From assembly GCA_002104935.1 (NCBI GenBank), contig MCGT01000002.1, forward strand, positions 186,001-250,000: a stretch of DNA of 64,000 nucleotides, in the 5' to 3' direction. The stretch is from Hesseltinella vesiculosa (lineage: Eukaryota > Mucoromycota > Mucoromycetes > Mucorales > Cunninghamellaceae). Positions 1,875 through 43,575 of this stretch are shown piece by piece. The position numbers were made by a program, and so were the translations under genes. The notes under the pieces were generated by a model that was not told the origin of the DNA, searched no databases, and was given only the letters and a program-made list of their open reading frames with translations. Position 1 is the first letter of the stretch, and every line of letters starts with the position of its first letter.

Positions 1875-4149
1875 ATGTCAGACTCAGAAAACCAACAAGT
1901 TCCTGAAGTGAATGAACGTACGCGATTGCTGGGTGCAGCCACGACAACCACTAGCGCAAGCTATAATGGTCATGTGGAAAGTCAAGTGGTGACGATTGGT
2001 GCATCGACGTCCGTCAGTGTCCACGAAAGCACGGTTCCTTTGGACCAACTCACCGACCACATTCAGCACATTCTTGTTTATGGCGAAAAAGGTACTCGTG
2101 GTAGCTCATCTTCGTCCTCCGTGTGCTCTCAGAAACAAAAGCGGTCGACCCAAATCGTTGTCGGTGACGAGCCCGTGGAAGCCGGCGTCGTCGTTGAAGA
2201 ACACAAGGCTGAAAAGCAAATGCGCAAACGCGACCTGGTGGCTACATCACTTAAGTTTGCTACCGAACGATGGATGGAAGACCAAGGCATGGATCCCGAA
2301 CAAATTATGAACCCCAACACAGCCTCCGGCTTAGGTCCGCTGCCACTGATCCAGCATGCGCCTGCACCTGTCGGCAATGGCTTCCAGACTGAGAATGTGC
2401 AACAAGTCTGGGGCGTGGCCAAGAATGCTTCAGCCTGTGCTGTCCTTGGCCTGCTCAGCGAACGTCGCCAAGGGAAACTCTCCCTCACCCAAGATGGTGA
2501 CGCCACCCTCCAGCGCCTGGCTCTGTCCACCCTCGAACATGGCATCAAGCAAACCTCCGCCAAGGACATGCTCCGACAAGAAATGCTGCTAAAGCCCATG
2601 CTCGGCAACAAGTCCGGTAACGCCACGAAAAAGAACCCCCTAGTGTCATCTCACTTTTTTGCTTATGCTAGCTTTGCAATGGGCTCTTGATAATGATTGC
2701 CATATCTTTTTGGATGATGAAAATGTGGTTGCCACCGTCAAGGTAAAAAAAAAAAAAAAAAAAAACTGCATCGTTTGTTGTCTTTCCTTTTTTGCCACAT
2801 GCAACTCATTATTATTTTTTTTTTTGTTGCAGCAATCGTGGCGCTATGGTGATATCGAATGGCGTTCCAACCCAGACCATCCATTCCAAGCATGGAACAC
2901 AACAAACGGCGGTCGTGACCACTGGCAATCAGCCTTTTCCAAACAATGGATCGCCAACTTTTTTGCTCGATGGGCTTCTCCCAGGTTAGACATCAATAGA
3001 CAAAAAAAAAAAAAAAAAAAAAACAGCGCCTTATTTTTTTTTCTCAAAAGATACCAAGGCCTCATTGGCATCTTTTCTGTGCTGGTGTACATTGGGTTCC
3101 ACTTGGCTACCTTGTTCAATGACGCTTATACCGATGACAGCCTTGCCTCGTATGAATACTTTTATTACGTCCTTGTGGTCTCAGACTTGGTGCTTGAACT
3201 TTGGAAGGCAAGCCCTTGATGAACAGTCAAATCAAACGCCATGAACACAGTTTTCCTTACAGCATTTCTCTCTTAGATTTTGCAACGTCCTAGTCATGCC
3301 CTGCAACAACCGGCTACTTATATCGGCTTAGGTTGTGCCTTGCTCTTGAGCTCCTCGTTTGCAATCCGCTGCTGGGCCATGTGTGCTCAAGATATCCAAA
3401 CCAAATACCGCCTGTTCTATGCTTCCTATATATTTCTGACAGTGGCCACGCCTGTTCTGTTTCTGCGTTTGTTTGTCTGGGTCAATGACGGTTGCTGGCC
3501 CGTGTACAAGATCAATTTCATTGTGCGCAAATGTGTTATTGGTGCTGCCTGGGTTTACCAAGTCGGGTTCCTCACCCTGCTTGGCTTCTGGGTCGGTCTG
3601 GTTGCCCTTCAGCGCGACGACATCCCCCCCTTGTTGATGTTGCAACATTTGATCCTTGGCGCATTGCAGTAAGGAAAAAAAAATTGGCCACATCATGCAG
3701 GAACAGAAAATGAAGTGGCTGCTCACCCAACTTTTTCTTTTTAATCCAGTGCCCCTGAAATCGGCGACACGCTGTACTTCCAGCCCAGGGCGGCCAGCAT
3801 TTTGCTGATTGGTTATTTGTTGGTGATGGTAGTGTTCCTGGGTTCGATGTTGACAGCCTCGTTCTTTGTGACATTGTTTACCCTGCAACAGCACACGCCT
3901 TGGGACAAGAAACAACGTCACATGGAAGCCGAGCGCTGTAGCAAGCCAGCTGTTTATGGCATGTTCATCCCCAACGTCGCCTTTGCCTTGATCTTTGGCT
4001 TCATTGCTTGGCTTATCCGCAAAATCAACCCGCGTGCCTCTCTCGTCTGGCTCAACCGTGTCTCCCAAGTCATTTGGTTCATCATCTTCCTCCCCATCAT
4101 CTTGCTCGTAGGCTTGTTTGATCTCATCTTGTACCTGATCTTCAAATAA
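1875..4149 (+). CDS. TRP/Yvc1-like vacuolar cation channel
   Basis: Six exons (1875-2616, 2672-2742, 2833-2984, 3051-3207, 3277-3668, 3750-4149) join in frame to 637 residues. The N-terminal half is soluble and carries an ERTRLLG dileucine-type motif, which suits vacuole or endosome sorting. From about residue 325 come six hydrophobic segments, with a short pore-like loop (ILGALHAPEIGD) between the fifth and the sixth, then two further hydrophobic stretches near the C-terminus. This order, and the spacing of a YQ-x-L first helix, match fungal Yvc1, the vacuolar TRP channel that releases Ca2+ to the cytosol on hyperosmotic shock. The match is by architecture and scattered residues, so the family call is moderate and ion selectivity is inferred. 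The fourth intron (3208-3276) starts with GC instead of GT. The third and earlier introns hold 20-base poly-A runs. Confidence 0.68.
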
Positions 4150-4536
4150 AAAAAAGCGCCCAACACGACCACGGCTGTTTTATCATCCACACTGACCCTC
4201 AACCCTCCGTGTTTTTTCCGACATCCGTGACCTGATCACCTTGTACCAAAAAAAAAAAAAAAAAAAAAAAACCATGACAGCCCTGGTGAGTATGGTCAGT
4301 TATTTGGAAAAGAGATATAAATCAAAAAGTGTCTAGACCAGAACGGTTCTTGATTCAGTTGTTCGGATGACTTCCTGCGCCGAACAAGTCAGGCGCATTT
4401 TTGAGCTGCTTTTGTCAAGCCATGCTGGGAAACAGGTATGTCTTCAAAAGAAGAAATTGGGGCTTTGGTTTTAATGCGTAGACGGGGTTTCTTAAAACAA
4501 ATCCAATACTAGACTTTACCATAGTAAAATGTGTAA
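4150..4536. other. Intergenic stretch with an apparent truncated gene start
   Basis: After the channel gene there is a 25-base poly-A run (4246-4270) and directly after it ATG at 4274. A four-codon exon (4274-4285, donor GTGAGT) can be joined to 4337-4438 (acceptor TCTAG, donor GTATGT) to read about 38 residues containing TSCAEQVRRIFELLL and SHAGKQ. The second donor is good, but I find no third exon; the sequence then runs into the 3' end of the minus-strand cysteine-rich gene. It is either the surviving 5' end of a gene cut by rearrangement, or chance. Confidence 0.3.
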
Positions 4537-4884
4537 TCACCCATTGTTGCATGGCTCTCCAAAGTTTTTACGGCATGAGCCATTCTTACAATAGCAAGGA
4601 TCTTGGCATCGGTTGTTACATTGGTCGAGAGCTGCTACTGATTGACAACAAACTTGCTTTGGTAATTCAAGTTTGCAATCATAATCCACATCAATCTGAT
4701 TAAATTTTGCCTGCACACAATTCATACATGATGCTAAAGACTGCATGGATGAACAGTCCTCCATAGGATACTTCTTATGGCATTGGCTAATAGGCCCTAG
4801 CAATCGAATCAACATGCATTGTAATCCTTGAGCTGCCACCAGGGTTGTCATGCACAAACTGAAGATCAAAAACACAACTTTCAT
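4537..4884 (-). CDS. Small secreted cysteine-rich protein (14 Cys)
   Basis: A single uninterrupted exon of 115 residues. The first 19-20 residues (MKVVFLIFSLCMTTLVAAQG) are a textbook signal peptide with cleavage probably after VAA or AQG. The mature part, about 95 residues, has 14 cysteines, including C-x2-C, CC, C-x3-C-x3-C-x-C-x4-C patterns near the C-terminus, so up to seven disulfides are possible. There is no transmembrane segment or obvious lipid-anchor site. Small secreted cysteine-rich proteins of fungi include surface proteins, inhibitors and effectors, but I recognise no named family here, and no function is claimed. A TATAAA-like box lies only about 36 bp upstream of the ATG, implying a very short 5' leader. 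It sits at the edge of a gene-poor, repeat-rich block, a common location for fast-evolving secreted protein genes. Confidence 0.7.
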   Translation of the reverse strand: MKVVFLIFSLCMTTLVAAQGLQCMLIRLLGPISQCHKKYPMEDCSSMQSLASCMNCVQAKFNQIDVDYDCKLELPKQVCCQSVAALDQCNNRCQDPCYCKNGSCRKNFGEPCNNG

Positions 4885-4919
4885 TTTCTTTATAGCTTAT
4901 TTTAATAATATTTCAACCT

Positions 4920-4927
4920 TTTATATA
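4920..4927 (-). promoter_or_regulatory. TATA box of the cysteine-rich gene
   Basis: On the minus strand this reads TATATAAA, ending 36 bp before the start codon at 4884. It is the best core promoter element in the area. The spacing would put transcription start almost at the ATG. Confidence 0.5.
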
Positions 4928-4994
4928 GGCTGTTGTCAGGAACCAACTGCCAGGAGCCAACCCCATAGCTCTGGCACTCTCCCTATTGCCCCTT

Positions 4995-5126
4995 TTACAC
5001 TAATAGGGGATATCGGTCACCTCCTCTGTATAACCCCGCTCCAGTACTCCCATGACCTCCTTACACAAATAGGAGATATCGGTCACCTCCAATATATAAC
5101 CCCCTTCCAGTAATTCCATGACCTCC
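4995..5126. repeat. Two-copy 66-bp tandem repeat
   Basis: Positions 4995-5060 and 5061-5126 are two directly repeated 66-bp units. They share TTACAC at the start, GATATCGGTCACCTCC in the middle and CCATGACCTCC at the end, with a handful of substitutions between copies. The pair lies 110 bp upstream of the cysteine-rich gene start, so it could affect its promoter; that is inference. Confidence 0.75.
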
Positions 5127-6748: not shown

Positions 6749-7010
6749 ACCACACCAAGGCACCTTCATAGCAAGGCACCACCACACCAAGGCACCTTCA
6801 TAGCAAGGCACCACCACACCAAGGCACCTTCATAGCAAGGCACCTTCATAGCAAGGCACCTTCATAGCAAGGCACCACCACACCAAGGCACCACCACACC
6901 AAGGCACCACCACACCAAGGCACCACCACACCAAGGCACCACCACACCAAGGCACCACCACACCAAGGCACCACCACACCAAGGCACCACCACACCAAGG
7001 CACCACCACA
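6749..7010. repeat. 16-bp minisatellite, 16 units of two types
   Basis: Sixteen contiguous 16-bp units run from 6749 to 7004, followed by six bases of a seventeenth. Unit A is accacaccaaggcacc and unit B is ttcatagcaaggcacc; they share the last nine bases. The order is A B A B A B B B and then eight A. Units of one type are identical to each other as far as I can read. The length is not a multiple of three, so it is not a coding repeat. The array follows a non-coding run that begins with a poly-A tract near 6630. Confidence 0.93.
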
Positions 7011-29903: not shown

Positions 29904-31766
29904 ACAAAGCTTTTAAATTTTTAGATGCGTAGAAGAAAAGAACGTGGTCCTTTGTTTACAGCGTTTTGTTTGCTGCGGGTGCTCGATCGAGATCATTTGA
30001 CCTTCACGCACACCTTTTTTTTTTTTACTTTTTCAGGTTGTTCTTTGGGTTTCCTCCTGGCTGTCCAAAGTCCAGCAGATGCAAACAAACAATTTGCCAC
30101 TTTTTGGAATACATCATCACCACTTTTTTCCCCTTCTCCTGGACGCTCCAGGTATTGGCTGTTGTTCCTATGGTCTTGGTCACGAGCTTTGGGGTGTTGA
30201 TAGGCTTGCGCCAACGTCTCTTTGGTCTTGATCTACAGGCGGGGGCAGGTAGGCATATTCCATGGCACCTTGCCATCACAAGGGGAGACTCTAGCCCCAG
30301 GACTTTGCCGCACAGTGAGAGGGAAAATCTGGCCACAGTCAACAAAAATCCGAGGCGTCTATTTGCAAAAGTAGCCAACGGGATTCTTGGGAGGGAAGCA
30401 GCCATACCCATTCCAAATTTCATAGACCAAGCTTAGGGTGGAGCGCAAAAATGATTAAAACCACAAGCCTCCTTGGCACCATATCTGTGGGCTAGGGTTC
30501 AGTCATCCCCAAGTCAAAGTATGAGCAGGCTTTCCACCTGTCACGTTTTGGAGCAATGCCCAGTCCAAAATTCAAATTCTCCCCGTAAACGCGTGGGCGG
30601 CTCCCCTCAATAAGTTACGTACATACATAATGCACATGCTTAAAGATATGTGTGTCTTGATTTCGTTTACTGTGTACATAAATGGAAACATGCCGTCTAG
30701 CAGTATCACCAACTTTACCGAAAGGTTGAAAAAAAATTAACATTAGCAGGCAGGGGTGAGCGGGAAATAAACGACGGCAGAGAAAGGTGAGAGATTACCA
30801 GGCGCGGATAATGTTCCATCACATGCTGGTGTTTTATCTATGTGGGATGAAGGCAATGGGAATGATAGAAAAAAATAAAGCAAATGCCATGGTGCATGAA
30901 ATTGGTGTCGAAGGAAAAGAAAAACGAGAAAAAGAGGTTGCTATGACGACCGAGAAATGTCCAATTTGGAAGGCAAGAGTGAAGCATGCATGGTGTTGAC
31001 CATGTGAAAATAAAACGAAACATTCCCACCCCAACAAAAGCCTACATGGTATCTGGCACTGCTCTGGTCAATTAAGTAGCAATGCGCAGCAATAAAAAAC
31101 GCTGGACGTGCGATATCTCTTTCCTGCCCACTATCGCGTCATTGACTTAGGCAAAGGGTGACAGTGCCCAAAAAAAAAAAAAAGGAATGCTTGAGCAGCA
31201 GTAAAAAAGCACTGAGGTGCCCTGTGCCAAGTCAATCGTGTGGCGGTGCGCAGCAAAAAAAAAAGCGTCAAAAAAAAGTGATGCTTGTGCAGCAAATAAA
31301 AGAAAACATAGGAGGCAACAATGCTCTCCTAGAAAAATCCTGGAAGGCGCAAATGCTGCCCCCAAAAAAAGAAAGCCTACATAAATCACTTTGATGAAGC
31401 CAAGGCATGTTGTTTTTCGAACAAAGTGCAGTCAAATGCTTCTGAGTAGCTTTTTTTTCAAAAATGATATCGCCAGGGTACGCGCAAAGTAATTCATTTT
31501 CAACCAACAGGATCCACGGGACATGCGTTAAAAAAGACAAAGTCCAAAAACAAAATACGGCGACAGACAACAGGGACAGCGAGCCCAAGGGCGAAAAAAT
31601 ATCCATATTTAGACATGGCCAAAAAAGTGGCAATTTTAAGTAAATACTTACTTTCCTTCAAAGGGAATGAAAATAATTGCCACAGAATGGTGACTGGCGA
31701 TAAAAAAAAAAGTAAACAGCTCTCAATTTTATTGCTTAAAGTGCACAAAGAAAAAGGAGATAATCA
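29904..31766. other. Long intergenic stretch, no convincing gene
   Basis: About 1.9 kb. The longest open frames (for example 29966-30436) are poly-Phe-rich at the start, lack usable splice sites and show no family motif. A-rich runs with AGCAG/GCAGC words occur near 31165-31300, low-complexity rather than a defined repeat. Possibly an undetected lineage-specific transcript; I see nothing I can support. Confidence 0.5.
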
Positions 31767-32493
31767 CTAGTCCTCTTTGAATGAGGGAAGCAACGATGGG
31801 AGGCATGATAAGGATGGGTCGTTGGGTGGCGAAGAATACCAAGTCGGTCGTTGCTTTTTGGTGAGACGGTGTGGTTTGATGGCAGCGGCAGGGCGACTGT
31901 GTTTTGAGCCGAGAGACGCGCGCTTATCCTTACACAAATCCATCTGGTTGTTGACAATAGCGCTGATTGAACAAAGCTGATCCTTCAGAGCAAGAAGGGC
32001 GTCAAGGGTATCGGAAAAGCGACGAAGAGATGCTGAAGAACGTGGGTATTGGAGGCGATAGCGCGGCAAGGCAACGTATAGGCCATATTGGTCAAGTTGG
32101 ATAGATGACATGGAGCCTTGAAAGCCGTCCAGTTGAATGATCACACCCATCATGGCATTAGCGGCTTGTTGCTCGAATGATGTGTTCAACAGGTTATCCA
32201 AAATATCCTTTCCTTCGCGCAGAAGCTTTGCATTGTCGTTGATAGTTTGTCGTCGTGGCTGTCGTCACGGGCTGCCTCTACTGCAGCAATGTCTATCATC
32301 TTGGATGTGTGGTGGCAGTCATTGACAAAACGAATGTCGATCTTGAACGCAATGGGGTGGTGATGGCCATTTAATGCTGTGTCCGTTTGTTGGCGGCCGT
32401 GGCCGCATTGCTCGTTTCCGCAATCCTTGCTGGGATGGACGTGCCACTGAATAAAAGGTCAAACAGCGGTAGCCACAACTTAAAGGCTACATC
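31767..32493 (-). pseudogene. Downstream coding-like remnant of the 33570 gene
   Basis: Past the TAG of the neighbouring 311-residue frame, the same frame stays open for about 40 residues (AFKLWLPLFDLLFSGTSIPA). Another frame then reads CGHGRQQTDTALNG and KIDIRFVNDCHHTSKMIDIAA. With a possible intron (donor GTAGAG, acceptor CAAAG) this leads into a clean final frame (about 32230-31767) reading LLREGKDILDNLL, then SSIQLDQYGLYVALPRYRLQ and a basic tail. The pieces look like protein but have no start of their own and do not join without a stop or frameshift. Either the gene is decaying, or sequence errors or an unusual intron are hiding one longer gene. No family recognised. Confidence 0.4.
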
Positions 32494-33570
32494 CTATTCT
32501 GTGGGTGGCGTTTTACGGAGGGGGTCCAGCATGGTGCGATAGATGGCCAATGAGCCGATGAACTGCGCGACAAGTCTCAGGCCCATTATCGAATCTTCGT
32601 CAGTGTCGGCTGCCTCCATTGCTTTAGTCAAATAGGCCATGGCCGCTGCGCCCTTGGATCGCTCGCACAGATGGATGAAGTGTGTCAGGGCTCCGTCAAG
32701 ATAAGGAGGTCGAGCAAATGCGAGTGCTTCCTTAAATGTGTAGTCGTATTGTGCACGCATTTTCATCCACAGCGATGTCCCAAATAATGATCGCTGGCCA
32801 TCTTCGTTCGCATCCACAAAGTCGAGGATACCCGAGAGACCGGAGGACATGATGGATCGTTCAGCAGACGAGATCAGGCTGCCTAAGTTGTAGAGGTAGC
32901 AAAAAAAAGAAAGAAAATGAGAAAATGCTGGATGGCTGTCCAATTTTTTTCTTGCCTTGGGTATATCGCTCGTGTATCTCGATGGCTGCCTTTTCAATGG
33001 TGCTTTTAGGCATCCTATCGCTTGAGCATTCATCTGCCTCTTCATTTTCATCTTCGGTTGAACGGGAAGTACTAGAGTTTAAGTCGACGTCTGAATCAAT
33101 GTCATCGCTGGGTAGGTGATTGGTGCCAACTATCATTTCGCTATTCGAGCTTGACGTGGTGCTTCCATTCATTAGCTTTTGCGCTTGCTTATCCAAAGCA
33201 TTCCCCACCAGCAGTGAGCCGGCAAGATCTGCCTTCAATTCGTTTTTTTGTATTGGTTTGATCAGCTGTTTTCTGAATAGCCGCCTGGTCCAAGACGTGT
33301 GAGAATATGCGGAGGAATCGTTCTTTCGTCCAGAAAGGTAATGAGTCGCTCGGCGTAAAGTTGCATTGGCATGCTGATTGCATTTTTGCTGATAGACCGC
33401 AGAGCTTGTTTTAATATATTCATTGCTTTTGAGGTGTTGGCATTGGGAAGATGCAAGCGTATGAGGGGGCACACAACATCGAGATCTCCCGATTTATCTA
33501 CACGGATATCTGCTAGTACAGTGTTTGTTTCCCAAGATAAAAATTGCCTTTTTTTTAAAGGCAAAGTCAT
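32494..33570 (-). CDS. Hypothetical protein with acidic linker, possibly truncated
   Basis: Three exons (33570-33297, 33228-32956, 32882-32494) join in frame to 311 residues ending KTPPTE. The N-terminal part is helical (NTSKAMNILKQALRSISK, QLYAERLITFLDE). The middle (about residues 115-160) is acidic and Ser-rich (DDIDSDVDLNSS, TEDENEEADECSS). The C-terminal part is again helical (GILDFVDANEDGQRSLFG, MGLRLVAQFIGSLAIY). No domain recognised. The second intron has a GC donor (GCAAGA); the first has a weak GTCTTG donor, so the exon 1-2 junction is less certain. Coding-like sequence continues past the stop. The start codon lies 138 bp from the outer edge of the left inverted-repeat arm, so its promoter is probably inside or next to that arm, back-to-back with the zinc-finger gene. 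Confidence 0.5.
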
Positions 33571-33707
33571 GAGACAGGCCGTGTGGTTGTGGGAACATGT
33601 CGGCAAAAAGGAAAACGTGAACAAAAAGTAAAAAAAGATGAGAAGGCGCGGGAGGCACAAAGAGGCCGTGGATATGTATTTTTTTGTTATTTTTTCATCT
33701 TATGTGC

Positions 33708-34983
33708 CTCTGGAAACGCACCTTTCCAGTATCCTTGCAAGGGCTGCTTGTCATCAACACCACATGCCTTTTCTACAGGCATGGCGAGTTATAGACCTGC
33801 AAGAGGACCGTTGGGTTGGAGGAAGTAAAAATGCTCGAATTTGCTTATTTCTCCCCAGCTCACTGAGCGTGCAGGCTGCAAAATGAGTGACTCATTGCCC
33901 TTTTTTTTATACTCACTAAAAGTGAAGTATCATATAAAAATTGTCATACACAGTCTCCATGGTAACTCCAAATTTCCGCACTCAGGTTTTGAAGTAAACA
34001 GCCATCGTTTTGGTTCAGCAGTTGCCTAAGCATGTAATAAAGCAGCTGGGGCAACTGTCATTGTTGATCAACAAAGCCAGCCATAGCTTGGGCTAGATGA
34101 GTATGATGCATGTTGTGCAGACGCGAAGCTGAAGGAATCCTGAATCAAAAAAAAAATGAAAGAGGACCAATGAAAGTGTGTTGGAAGTTTCCCAGCCAAA
34201 ATGGCTTGCGGGCGATGGAAGTGCAGTGGAAGCAGTGTGAGGCAGATGCCAGCCAATCAAAAATGAAGGAGGGCCAATGAAAGTGTGTTGGAAGTTTCCC
34301 AGCCAAAATGGCTTGCGGGCGATGGAAGTGCAGTGGAAGCAGTGTGAGGCAGATGCCAGCCAATCAAAAATGAAGGAGGGCCAATGAAAGTGTGTTGGAA
34401 GTTTCCCAGCCAAAATGGCTTGCGGGCGATGGAAGTGCAGTGGAAGCAGTGTGAGGCAGATGCCAGCCAATCAAAAATGAAGGAGGGCCAATGAAAGTGT
34501 GTTGGAAGTTTCCCAGCCAAAATGGCTTGCGGGTGATGGAAGTGCACAATTTTTTTTTCTTTTTGCTTTCCATATTTTTCTATATTCTTTTTCCATGGGT
34601 AGTTGCCTTTACAGCAAAAACGATGTCGTCCACAAAACGAACTGGATTGCCTGAGGAAGAAGTCGACTCGCTGGACTGCCGTATTTGCGACCAATTATTT
34701 GACAACAAGAACGCATTTTATCAGCACAGACGTCGAGAGCATGTGCTGCAAGCCAACGTCATCCTTGGTGACTGTAAGAAAAAATAAAACATCCAAAGAA
34801 CATGGCCATCCACTTTTATTTATTTTTTTTTGTCTGGTGATAGACACCGTATCTGTTCCGTTTGAGAGTGGCAGATTTCGTTGTCCTCTGGCATGTTGTC
34901 CTGCAGCTGTGTTTAAGAATGTCGATACTTTAAAAGCACATATGACAAAGCAGCACAACAGCATCGTGGAAGTAGCCCTGTAT
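33708..34983. repeat. Left arm of a 1,276-bp inverted repeat
   Basis: This segment is repeated in inverse orientation at 36513-37788. Both arms are exactly 1,276 bp, and mirrored coordinates always sum to 71496, so there are no net indels. I find only two mismatches, both in the last 20 bp at the inner end (about 34964 and 34976). The outer tip carries a small hairpin (CTGGAAA..TTTCCAG). The arm contains a non-coding outer half, a 107-bp tandem array with CCAAT boxes, and exon 1, intron 1 and the start of exon 2 of the zinc-finger gene. Confidence 0.95.
34158..34546 (+). repeat. 107-bp tandem array in the zinc-finger gene promoter (left)
   Basis: Three full units (34158-34264, 34265-34371, 34372-34478) and a 68-bp partial unit end about 75 bp upstream of the start codon at 34623. 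Each full unit boundary carries two CCAAT boxes in the sense orientation (for example 34253-34257 and 34274-34278), 21 bp apart. Units 2-4 are almost identical; unit 1 is slightly diverged (AGAGGACC instead of GGAGGGCC). CCAAT boxes are bound by the Hap2/3/5 (NF-Y) complex in fungi, so the array probably sets promoter strength. Confidence 0.9.
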
Positions 34984-36339
34984 GAAAATGAAACAAACAG
35001 TCCAAGAAAAAAAATCAAAACAGAAGCACCATTATTTGGATTCATCGAGGGCAGTCATGCGGCTCTATCCAGCAATTACAGCAGCAACATGGCCTTCTAC
35101 CAAACAAAGGCAACCGGATGTTCACCACTTGCCATGCATTTGAAATACCATGGCATGCCTGCACGCTACAGTTTTCATAGCCTTGTGCATGATGACCGGT
35201 TGCTAGATTTGCTCGAAAAAATCCCTTTTCAAGACAAACATTACTCGGAGCAATTAGATTGCGTGTTACAGCTGCACACTGGATCCAACACGACTTCAAT
35301 GAAAGACGCTGCAGCAATCTCATCGCCCAACCTGGCCTTTATCGAAAAATCTATTGCTTTGTCTAAAATCCCTGGCATCGGCACCACCGAATATGTCAAA
35401 CCATCCCAACAATTGGTTGACGCCTTGAAATCCGATTTTCGCTTGTGGCCAAATCTTTTGCACGCGGTTGCTATGCTACACACTGGTTGCCTGGTGACTA
35501 ATGGTCACGACATACTTATCACACTAACGGCTGAGGCTTACTCACGGTCAAAGGCATTGGATGTTCATGCGGAGACGAATCTGAAGACCATCCCTTCTCC
35601 AGGCAGTGCAATTGACGGCCTGTCTCTTGGTGTGTACGAAGAGGCAGATGGTGGGCCAGTGAAAAAAAAGTTGAAAATCGGCAGCGATCACATGAACGTT
35701 TTAATTACTATGTCAGCCATGATTAAGACGAACGAGGTGTTCATCGGTCCAGAAACGCCTCTTACCGACATTGAATCAGAAATGATCATCTTTTACGACG
35801 CGGCCAAAGAAAAAAAATTTTTAGAGATCCTTCGCGGAGAACAGGAGCTTGCTATGCCTTCGTACAAGTGTCCTAAGTCTGTGTCTGCCCTCCGTCAATT
35901 ATCTTCCAGCTTTGGAAAAGCAAGCACGTACTCGGCATGGCGAGCGACATTAAACGGCCTGGATACAGATTTGCTTCAGCCTGCAACCGTTTTCACAATT
36001 GCAGACATTCCTGGAAACCAAAAGTATGGCATTTCAGAAAATTGCACAGTCAAGGCAGCAAGTAGCGCTCTTCAGGCTGTAGCTATTGCGGTGATGACCA
36101 GTCGCTCACTTGAAAGCAAAACCATCATGACAGCTATCTTGCAGTCTGCTTCCAACTCAAGCGATGCCTCCATTGTGGCTTTAATGATTCACCTGTCAAC
36201 TCGCATCACAACCGACCCTTTTGACTTGGCAAGGTTTTTGTCCCCTTTGGCAAAGGTGACATCCAGCGCATTGTCTTCCGCAAATCAAAAGATAAAGTCC
36301 AATGTCCAGATCAAGTTACTACAAATGTTCGGCCATTGA
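34623..36339 (+). CDS. C2H2 zinc-finger protein spanning the inverted-repeat cassette
   Basis: Two exons (34623-34773, 34844-36339) give 548 residues. Residues about 17-38 form a C2H2 finger (CRIC-x12-H-x4-H), and residues about 62-86 a second finger-like unit (CPLACC..H-x4-H). A basic SPRKKIKTE patch near residue 105 may be a nuclear signal. The remaining 430 residues are mixed helical, with no transposase triad or other domain that I recognise. The first ~97 residues, including both fingers, lie in the left arm; all the rest lies in the single-copy spacer. A CCAAT-rich tandem array is directly upstream, and an AATAAA signal follows near 36411. A nucleic-acid-binding role is inferred from the fingers. 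Its closest relation in the window is the truncated inverted copy at 36471-36873. Confidence 0.8.
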
Positions 36340-36512
36340 TGATATTTTCCACGGATGAAAATTCGATTGTAATTCCTCTCCCACCACATACCTTGCACAA
36401 CCGTTTCCAAATAAACATTTTATTGTGTTTTGACCATTTTGTTATGCCATTGCATTCGCTGTGCAGAAGATCAAATCCGTATCTCTAAACCATGCATTTC
36501 AATTGCATGGCT
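34984..36512. other. 1,529-bp spacer between inverted arms
   Basis: Single-copy DNA holding the body and 3' end of the zinc-finger gene. It ends with 132 bp that complete the truncated minus-strand frame from the right arm. Inversion of exactly this segment by recombination between the arms would place the gene body behind the right-arm promoter in frame. Confidence 0.8.
36340..36470. other. 3' flank of the zinc-finger gene
   Basis: Short region with a polyadenylation-like AAATAAACA near 36411. Transcripts from both arms would converge here. Confidence 0.4.
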
Positions 36513-36873
36513 ATACAGGGTTACTTCCACGTTGCTGTTGTGCTGCTTTGTCATATGTGCTTTTAAAGTATCGACATTCTTAAACACAGCTGCAGGACAA
36601 CATGCCAGAGGACAACGAAATCTGCCACTCTCAAACGGAACAGATACGGTGTCTATCACCAGACAAAAAAAAATAAATAAAAGTGGATGGCCATGTTCTT
36701 TGGATGTTTTATTTTTTCTTACAGTCACCAAGGATGACGTTGGCTTGCAGCACATGCTCTCGACGTCTGTGCTGATAAAATGCGTTCTTGTTGTCAAATA
36801 ATTGGTCGCAAATACGGCAGTCCAGCGAGTCGACTTCTTCCTCAGGCAATCCAGTTCGTTTTGTGGACGACAT
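36471..36873 (-). pseudogene. Truncated inverted copy of the zinc-finger gene 5' end
   Basis: Mirror copy of exon 1 (36873-36723), the intron and the first part of exon 2 (36652-36471). It would encode 110 residues: the same two zinc fingers up to MTKQHNSNVEVTLY, then 14 residues specific to the spacer edge and a stop at 36471. Two substitutions change I to N and A to T relative to the full gene. It keeps the complete promoter array, so it is probably transcribed, antisense toward the 3' end of the full gene. It could make a fingers-only competitor protein or an antisense RNA. Confidence 0.75.
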
Positions 36874-37788
36874 CGTTTTTGCTGTAAAGGCAACTACCCA
36901 TGGAAAAAGAATATAGAAAAATATGGAAAGCAAAAAGAAAAAAAAATTGTGCACTTCCATCACCCGCAAGCCATTTTGGCTGGGAAACTTCCAACACACT
37001 TTCATTGGCCCTCCTTCATTTTTGATTGGCTGGCATCTGCCTCACACTGCTTCCACTGCACTTCCATCGCCCGCAAGCCATTTTGGCTGGGAAACTTCCA
37101 ACACACTTTCATTGGCCCTCCTTCATTTTTGATTGGCTGGCATCTGCCTCACACTGCTTCCACTGCACTTCCATCGCCCGCAAGCCATTTTGGCTGGGAA
37201 ACTTCCAACACACTTTCATTGGCCCTCCTTCATTTTTGATTGGCTGGCATCTGCCTCACACTGCTTCCACTGCACTTCCATCGCCCGCAAGCCATTTTGG
37301 CTGGGAAACTTCCAACACACTTTCATTGGTCCTCTTTCATTTTTTTTTTGATTCAGGATTCCTTCAGCTTCGCGTCTGCACAACATGCATCATACTCATC
37401 TAGCCCAAGCTATGGCTGGCTTTGTTGATCAACAATGACAGTTGCCCCAGCTGCTTTACTACATGCTTAGGCAACTGCTGAACCAAAACGATGGCTGTTT
37501 ACTTCAAAACCTGAGTGCGGAAATTTGGAGTTACCATGGAGACTGTGTATGACAATTTTTATATGATACTTCACTTTTAGTGAGTATAAAAAAAAGGGCA
37601 ATGAGTCACTCATTTTGCAGCCTGCACGCTCAGTGAGCTGGGGAGAAATAAGCAAATTCGAGCATTTTTACTTCCTCCAACCCAACGGTCCTCTTGCAGG
37701 TCTATAACTCGCCATGCCTGTAGAAAAGGCATGTGGTGTTGATGACAAGCAGCCCTTGCAAGGATACTGGAAAGGTGCGTTTCCAGAG
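36513..37788. repeat. Right arm of the 1,276-bp inverted repeat
   Basis: Inverse complement of 33708-34983 at matching length, with two mismatches near the inner edge. Immediately outside the arms the sequence is unrelated, apart from a weak ATGTGC (left) and ATGAGC (right) similarity at the outer edges, which is too short to call a target-site duplication. Confidence 0.95.
36950..37338 (-). repeat. 107-bp tandem array in the truncated copy's promoter (right)
   Basis: Exact mirror of the left array: three full 107-bp units and a 68-bp partial unit, again with paired CCAAT boxes facing the truncated gene start at 36873. Confidence 0.9.
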
Positions 37789-41490: not shown

Positions 41491-41769
41491 TTCATAGGCT
41501 TCTTGTTGCAGTTGGCTGCAAACACCAAAAATAAGAAACGGTGAGAATCCTCTCTCTTTATAATGGAGGTCTAGATCTTATAAATAACACGTCGTTACCT
41601 TCAATTGAAAACAGAATGATGCAGGTTTGAAGAACAATGCAATGAAAGGAACAAAGTGAAAAAGAAGAAAATAATGAAAGTGCGGCTGTGCTTCAGGAAC
41701 AGCGGTCTTTTTTGCGTCTGATTACTGCATTTGGCAGTGGGGGATCCCCAAGCAGAAGCCGTTTTTTTT

Positions 41770-41945
41770 TTAGGTGGAGAATCGGAGGTGTCAAAACAAA
41801 ATGTAATCAAATGTTGGCTGAGCAACCTTTATCAATGGATCTGATTTTTTCATCATCATCATTCGCTCATTTGCACATTTGCATAAAATTTCCCGCTGAT
41901 TGAATCACTCAAACGTTCTGTGCAGCGTTTGCTTTTTTTTTCTTT
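41770..41945 (+). repeat. Dispersed repeat copy, ~170-bp family (best copy)
   Basis: Runs from GGTGGAGAATCGGAGGTGTC through GTTGGCTGAGCAACC and CATCATCATCATTCG to CAATCACTCAAACG and a poly-T. Used as the reference for the other five copies. Confidence 0.65.
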
Positions 41946-42034
41946 TGTTTGAAAAACAGCAGATGGCAAGTCCAAAATAATTCAAAGGTCCAATGTCGCA
42001 CCTTGTCTAAAACAGTCCAACCAAGAGAGAGATA

Positions 42035-42100: not shown

Positions 42101-42654
42101 GTTTGCGGTTATTGCTTTATTGGTATTCCCGTGTAACACAATTGACCGAAAAGAGTGGCACTGTCAAGGTACCAAAGACAAAGGCAAGAACAACCACCAT
42201 TCTTGGAGCAATCTCTCCTTTTGGTGTTGTAAACATGTCAGTCAGGAGGCCAAGATGTACAATGCCATCAAAGAAGAGAAAGATGACTAGTGGCAGCAAA
42301 ACAGTTGCAACCAACAGCAGAGGTGGCACCACTACAGGGTATAAAAAAACACATCATCCAAGTTTTTGATTGAATGGCGAGGGCGAGGAAGATGAGCCAA
42401 TCAGCGAATGGCGAAATAATGGCGTTCTCTCCTTTTTATTTTTTCCTTTTTCCTCTTTCTCACAGCTTGCTTGTCTGTGTAATTGCTTCGAACATGTTTC
42501 GTCCGTCATGTCGTGGTATGGATCCTAAGTATTTTTTCAACAATGACACCTGTATCTCCTTGAAAATTGACGAATCGTTGTCGCTTATACCTGCGGAGCA
42601 ATCCAGTTTTCTACTCGTTTTGAAAAAAAAAAGCAAGTAATGCACAGCGCTTTT

Positions 42655-42800
42655 GAGTGATTGGATCGACGTGAAATTTTGAGCGTAGATGAACATTTAC
42701 GAATGGCAGCGATGCTGAAAAATCCACGCCGATTGGTGAAGGTTGCCCAGCCAACTTTTGATCACTTTCGTTTTGTCACCTCCGACTGCTCAGCTGAAAA
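42655..42800 (-). repeat. Dispersed repeat copy, ~170-bp family
   Basis: Inverse orientation; carries GGTGAAGGTTGCCCAGCCAA, TTTTGATCACTTTCGTTTTG and CACCTCCGA, all aligned with 41770-41945. Confidence 0.6.
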
Positions 42801-43449
42801 AAATGAAAATTCGGTTATTTTCGCCAGGGGAAAACGTCGGTATCCTTGCCAAGGCGTACATTGACACACACAGCATTCACAACAGCGGCCTCAGAGAAGC
42901 CCTCAAATCTTTTTAGCGTTCGTTTTACGATATTCAACAAAAGCGACAACGGCATGTGGCATATTATCTGCATATTGTTCTGATCTTGTGAAGTACCTTA
43001 AACAGCAGCACATCAAGGATAAATTTGCTGAGGCTTTCGACAATTACATGTTAGACCTGGAGCATCGTCAGCTGCTTCAAACAACAACAAAAATCACCAA
43101 GAATAACGCTGCTCGTCTTGCTATTAAAGACGCCAAAAAGCTGGAAGACGATCTGCAAAGTGATTTGAAAGGCGACGCGTCACGGTCAACACCAATTGAA
43201 AAATTGTTCCTCTATGCTTATGATAAATGGTGACATGATATAATTCTGTGTCCATCTTCATGATGAAGGAGAGACATTTGATATTGGCGCTTTTCACGCT
43301 TTCGATGGTGTGCAAATGAAAAAAAAATTGACCAGCCAAACTTTTGCTGTTGCTGAGGGTGAAATTCCAAAGTTGGCCAAACGTTACGCATAGTTGAAAA
43401 AGTCGCCTCGAACTCTAAAAAAAATATATATTATATTTGTTGAAAAACA

Positions 43450-43575
43450 AATGCAATCGCATGAATGATGATGGTGCTGAAAAATTCAGGTCCATTGATA
43501 AAGGTTGCTCAGCCAACATTTGATCACTTTTGTTTTGACACCTCCGATTCTCCAGCTAAAAATAAAAATCGGCCA
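43450..43575 (-). repeat. Dispersed repeat copy, ~170-bp family
   Basis: Inverse orientation; GATAAAGGTTGCTCAGCCAA, TTTGATCACTTTTG and GACACCTCCGATTCTCCAGC. About 85% like 42655-42800 by eye. Confidence 0.6.

Follow-up and report, generated by a model that had tools for sequence, protein, structure and literature searches.

The window analysed here, a stretch of 64,000 nucleotides of DNA from the mucoralean fungus Hesseltinella vesiculosa (Cunninghamellaceae; contig MCGT01000002.1, C12 in this work) by whose numbering all positions are given, contains a C2H2 zinc-finger gene whose promoter region and 5' half occur twice, in opposite orientations, around the rest of the gene. We consider, with a probability of roughly two in three, that the promoter and 5' half of the gene were copied in inverted orientation to form this locus, that its two arms have probably been kept alike by conversion, and that some conversion events would silently flip the segment between them. 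Its origin is mostly ordinary, that of an inverted partial gene duplication.

The two arms (33708-34983 on the plus strand and 36513-37788 on the minus strand) are 1,276 nt long each, align without gaps in opposite orientation and differ at three positions only, 34037/37459, 34964/36532 and 34975/36521. They enclose a spacer of 1,529 nt (34984-36512, plus strand) with the remaining gene body and 173 bp of its 3' region. An earlier sequence-only reading had placed the arm ends exactly, with their equal length, opposite orientation and near-identity, and had assigned the CCAAT array, exon 1, the intron and the start of exon 2 to the arms and the rest of the gene to the spacer, all of which was borne out; it also named the two inner mismatches correctly, omitting the third one at 34037/37459. 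The full gene (34623-36339, plus strand) starts with the ATG at 34623, has exons at 34623-34773 and 34844-36339 separated by a 70-nt intron (34774-34843), and encodes 548 amino acids up to a stop codon ending at 36339. Upstream of it lies a tandem array of 3.7 units of 107 bp with seven CCAAT boxes (34152-34546, plus strand; inverted copy at 36950-37344, minus strand), for which a genome search yielded, beyond the two arms, a single 39-bp match on another contig, C37. The truncated copy, which retains the fingers only, encodes 110 amino acids on the minus strand (36471-36873), with its ATG at 36873, an intron at 36722-36653 and a stop ending at 36471. Its first 97 codons are those of the gene, apart from two substitutions, and its last 13 come from the far end of the spacer; both its product and its splicing are identical to those of the annotated Hesseltinella vesiculosa protein DM01DRAFT_1369845 (P0012). 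The stop codons of gene and fragment are convergent and about 130 bp apart, and AATAAA signals were found between them on both strands (36410-36424). The right flank reaches MED6 (PF04934), the downstream neighbour of the zinc-finger gene. Long near-identical inverted repeats around a unique spacer, a feature of flip/flop regions of the homologous-recombination type, are present at this locus; the other inverted pairs listed for the window, excluding sub-pairs of the arms, measure at most 181 nt (73% identity), the best near that size being 101 nt at 92%.

The consequences of a crossover between the arms were studied by building the inverted order in silico for each of 1,275 crossover points. 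In all 1,275 the minus strand encoded 548 amino acids and the plus strand the 110-residue fragment, so that the earlier proposal, by which each orientation would have a full gene and a fingers-only fragment, holds in silico. The protein was unchanged at 1,256 of these points, because the inner-edge variants stay linked to the spacer, and was altered at one or both inner sites at the other 19; the I/N and A/T differences at the arm's inner edge (34964-34983, plus strand), which had been expected to change on inversion, would do so at those 19 alone. In addition, a flip leaves the upstream region of the gene as before, since promoter region and array sit in both arms. Inversion was therefore shown in silico to be silent for the gene. 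Survival of inversion is, however, the geometry of any inverted 5' gene copy lying downstream of its gene, the result being a mirror-image locus, and invertibility of this kind is not evidence of selection for it. The notion of a cassette built to survive inversion is unneeded, as inversion merely mirrors a locus whose arm copies the 5' part of the gene. One orientation was present in the single assembly examined, and the protein database holds one contig each for the models of the full gene (P0001) and of the fragment (P0012).

Comparison with related loci on C37 allowed the two arms to be told apart. Window positions 32708-33826, which span the outer end of the left arm, align in one piece to positions 4003-5112 of locus L008 (89%), and positions 33829-34190 align to L008 5479-5869 (81%). 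A second C37 locus, L007, gives the same matches at 82% and 81%, but with a tandem duplication. The outer 483 bp of the arm (33708-34190) consequently follow the same flank, in the same order, in two C37 loci; in separate searches the flank match (31702-33697, 90%) stops at C37:196992 and the arm match begins at C37:196993. What follows the shared part in L007 is not the zinc-finger gene but one for an inositol polyphosphate kinase (PF03770), of which L008 has a counterpart that is 98% alike. The base at 34037 is A in the left arm and in both C37 loci, and G in the right arm; for the two inner mismatches the paralogues are uninformative, this stretch being poorly conserved. As judged from these alignments, the left arm is shown to be the original, still in its old context, and the right arm to be an inverted copy with a derived base at 37459, because the diverged C37 loci continue over the outer edge of the left arm and carry its base at 34037. 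The first 119 bp of the arm are closer to L008 (98%) than the flank is (90%), which at 10% divergence would arise by chance with a probability of about 4e-4 and may reflect either conversion between C12 and C37 or constraint. Among 26 matched paralogue loci, a set that includes weak matches (E up to 0.035), no arms longer than 150 bp were found within the roughly 1.5 kb of flank taken for each, beyond which arms would be missed; the longest measured 138 nt (72%, L010).

The evidence on gene conversion between the arms comes mainly from the distribution of their differences. The inner edge has two of the three mismatches in its last 20 nt (p about 7e-4, or 3e-3 when either edge is allowed). Adjoining the inner edge of the right arm, the stretch 36490-36511 (minus strand) matches positions 35131-35153 of the gene in 20 of 23 columns, with two substitutions and one gap, and its gene match lies 147 nt beyond the arm end. 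Of 4,000 random 30-mers taken from the window, 1 scored as high as this match against the gene body and 0 did so against the next 300 nt; in each of the two comparisons 1 of 2,000 shuffles equalled the score. The stretch, which contains a hairpin with a 7-bp stem (36490-36510) ending 2 nt from the breakpoint, is a probable remnant of a longer inverted copy and looks like what was left of it after a deletion. Including the remnant, substitutions at the edge amount to 4 in 42 positions (about 10%) against 1 in 1,256 in the interior (Fisher p 4.6e-6); without it they are 2 in 20 against the same 1 in 1,256 (p 7e-4). Since the inner edge is about 10% diverged while the interior shows 1 difference in 1,256, gene conversion is suggested, and the simplest reading is that of an older duplication whose interior has been homogenised. 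On this evidence arm-to-arm conversion is moderately supported as a probable process at the locus. A homology of the arms extending inward over hundreds of bases was also considered and rejected: a gapped local alignment of 400 nt was equalled by none of 500 shuffles, but by 6 of 300 places of the same geometry in the window, which left the 23-nt remnant as the one inward extension retained. Extension by 60 or 150 nt on the inner side and by 60, 150 or 400 nt on the outer side gave no significant result, and neither did a further probe of the outer edge, 1,798 of 3,000 random probes scoring as high.

Other inverted repeats of this genome bear on the same question. To the left of the duplicated locus, window positions 30435-31680 match a dispersed repeat (among the best 40 of 114 candidate matches), of which the window has a single arm only. 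Thirty loci of this repeat (L040, L041 and L043-L070) were sampled, and 29 of them were found to contain a palindrome of at least about 0.3 kb, a share that is not unbiased, nearly all of the loci having been picked for paired opposite matches. The palindromes reach 2.4 kb in L041, and for the 25 loci fetched as stretches of less than 0.8 kb the lengths are lower bounds. In the 21 loci with both core arms longer than 100 nt (nine were dropped), the mean identity of the core arms was 95% within a locus (lowest 82%) against 81% between loci (highest 99%), and partner arms were sisters in the tree in 14 of the 21. The mismatches of L041 are clustered, leaving perfect runs of 261 and 258 nt, the longest of which was reached by 8 of 5,000 shuffles. 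The arms of inverted repeats in this genome thus seem to undergo homogenisation within each locus, which makes conversion plausible for the arms around the zinc-finger gene too. The palindromes look noncoding, and a search of L040 and the window with Rfam at gathering thresholds gave no match.

The following course of events would account for these observations. The promoter and 5' half of the zinc-finger gene would have been duplicated in inverted orientation between the gene and MED6, and the arms would then have been kept alike by gene conversion with each other. Some conversion events would be resolved as crossovers, flipping the spacer; each flip would swap the strands, with the same protein encoded and the fingers-only fragment left on the opposite side. 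A more far-reaching version, in which recurrent conversion holds an old inverted partial copy near-identical, the spacer silently inverts in nature and the locus exemplifies a tendency of the whole genome, where some thirty or more dispersed palindromes also have concertedly evolving arms, can be put forward only tentatively.

Several points weigh against conversion. The clustering at the edge was tested after the pattern had been seen and rests on four substitutions. There is a small palindrome in the remnant, whose antisense control scored 28 against 32, and BLAST of the whole spacer against itself returns the remnant match only at E 0.08. Among the dispersed palindromes, the partner arm is the nearest one in only 14 of 21 loci, and identity within a locus falls as low as 82%. 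Finally, mismatches at the edge would also be expected if a young duplication had been born by error-prone template switching, and such a birth is the main rival to conversion. According to it, one template-switching event that skipped 147 nt and made errors at the inner junction produced a young inverted duplication, whose arms are alike because they are young, without later recombination. The single difference in the 1,256 positions outside the inner edge and the complex inner junction, with the 7-bp-stem hairpin so close to the breakpoint, agree with it; however, a divergence near 10%, as at the edge, is a high figure for birth errors, and other inverted repeats of the same genome seem to be homogenised locus by locus. 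We regard this alternative as possible, though doubtful.

The remaining explanations leave less room. The convergent gene and fragment, whose stops lie so near to each other, could form a self-silencing hairpin locus: transcripts reading through would fold back along the arms and be a source for RNA interference (RNAi), a pathway that is active in Mucor (PMC5384783, PMC3720535). This is improbable, as poly(A) signals stand on both strands between the stops and, unless read-through takes place, the arm is represented in sense orientation in both transcripts. An assembly artefact, or the collapse by short reads of arms that truly differ, would fit the position of the mismatches, 9 to 330 nt from unique sequence, where short reads or read pairs could resolve them. 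It is nevertheless quite improbable in view of the unique spacer, of flanks that differ between left and right and of a window without any N. Furthermore, the N6-methyladenine (6mA) data set of this species was reportedly produced by PacBio sequencing, whose reads would span 4 kb, and this also speaks against an artefact. The 6mA density of Hesseltinella vesiculosa has been published (PMC6215013). Very little can be said for a selected, regulated flip-flop switch that alters the expression of the gene or its neighbours according to orientation: the geometry permits it, the mating-type loci of yeasts are described as switching by inversion (PMC6692504) and the MAT locus of Sclerotinia as inverting in half of the progeny (PMC3574095), but here the upstream region and the protein are the same after a flip. 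As for a mobile element with long terminal inverted repeats, which the inverted ends with a gene in the middle might recall, it is the least credible of all and was ruled out, because the homologous C37 loci continue across the outer end of the left arm, which is thus not an element end, and because the matches in the 27-Mb assembly include no second complete copy; neither a target-site duplication at the breakpoints (by eye) nor a transposase domain in the protein (Pfam) was found.

The two fingers of the gene (residues 19-40 and 64-88) fit the pattern C-X2-5-C-X11-13-H-X3-5-H by pattern match and lie wholly inside the arm. The Pfam model zf-C2H2_4 matched the protein with an E value of 3.3e-4, below its curated cut-off (21.6 against 27 bits). 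Among 7,995 scored candidates the only database model of the full gene was P0001, of 465 amino acids, which starts at an internal methionine in exon 2; in a Syncephalastrum homologue of 566 amino acids (P0004) both fingers are present by eye. The gene belongs to a dispersed family, with matches at 21 further places of the genome (E up to 3.0e-4) that include some pieces of one gene and some with stop codons, and with ten other proteins in the protein database, including those from Apophysomyces, Syncephalastrum, Mucor, Rhizopus, Fennellomyces and Circinella. For the C-terminal part no Pfam family above cut-off and no solved-structure match were found, and Pfam searches of nine family members gave weak matches only, each in one single member. 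AlphaFold2 prediction from nine of 11 sequences (P0006 and P0011 left out) had a mean predicted local distance difference test (pLDDT) score of 42, too poor to use. P0011, a metagenome protein of 345 amino acids, has a C-terminal part 61% identical to the C-terminal region of the family and an unrelated N-terminal part, and is either a fusion or a misjoined model.

Other features of the window and its relatives were also recorded. C37 has two copies, in opposite orientations and about 95-98% alike, of the segment that contains the inositol polyphosphate kinase gene and the relative of the gene in the window's left flank. The left-flank gene itself, of unknown family (31702-33598, minus strand), looks like a pseudogene in the window, because its frames there are shifted and overlapping (by eye), in contrast to the long open frames of the C37 copies. 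A high-copy dispersed repeat of about 190 bp (41764-41956) has at least 38 matches outside the window at 76-81% identity, counted among the best 40 of 560 candidates, and inverted relatives of it lie nearby at 42624-42803 and 43468-43567. A minisatellite of 16 bp in 16.4 copies occupies positions 6749-7010.

The locus offers a compact natural test case for conversion and crossover between arms in an early-diverging fungus: within 4 kb, the edge markers would stay outside most conversion tracts, and reads suited to this have probably been produced already. A further lesson is that no special design is required for a gene to survive inversion, and the dispersed palindrome family beside the locus may be the larger story. 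A search of the literature by title and start of abstract, on inverted-repeat inversion in Mucoromycota, palindromic repeats in Mucorales, and palindromes or gene conversion in fungal genomes, found nothing about this locus.

An inverted partial gene copy that allows a harmless flip is already known from a few fungi, and the statement that this is not a usual arrangement for a fungal nuclear gene has to be corrected in the light of precedents at the Sclerotinia MAT locus (PMC3574095), on Saccharomyces chromosome XIV (PMC9731477) and at the FF1 mating-type loci of yeasts (PMC6692504). On chromosome XIV a region of 24 kb flips between repeats of 4.2 kb that are homogenised by gene conversion within strains and species; orientation is stable on laboratory timescales, and inversion is taken as a by-product of conversion (PMC9731477). 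Like the present locus, that system is fungal and nuclear, with inverted repeats of gene sequence that are nearly identical, but its repeats hold whole genes around 24 kb and both orientations occur in nature (PMC9731477), whereas here the repeats hold half a gene around 1.5 kb, in the single assembly examined. In Sclerotinia sclerotiorum 3.6 kb are inverted by way of a 250-bp repeat belonging to MAT1-1-1, and the gene is truncated as a result (PMC3574095). As in our locus, the repeat belongs to a gene reaching into the invertible segment, and in a filamentous fungus; however, it is internal to the gene, so that MAT1-1-1 is truncated (PMC3574095), whereas here a repeat made of promoter region and 5' end would let the zinc-finger gene survive. 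The repeats of the yeast FF1 loci likewise hold parts of genes: those of Ascoidea are 2 kb long and include the 5' end of MATa1, and those of Ogataea include part of SLA2 (PMC6692504). Unlike the present locus, that of Ascoidea rubescens has its MAT genes 44 kb apart between the repeats, one repeat beside a telomere, and strains that differ in orientation (PMC6692504). Retention of the gene in either orientation, as obtained here in silico, is true of some flip/flop regions and not of the Sclerotinia MAT locus. If it flips at all, the Hesseltinella locus would work like those of Saccharomyces, Sclerotinia and the yeast FF1 systems.

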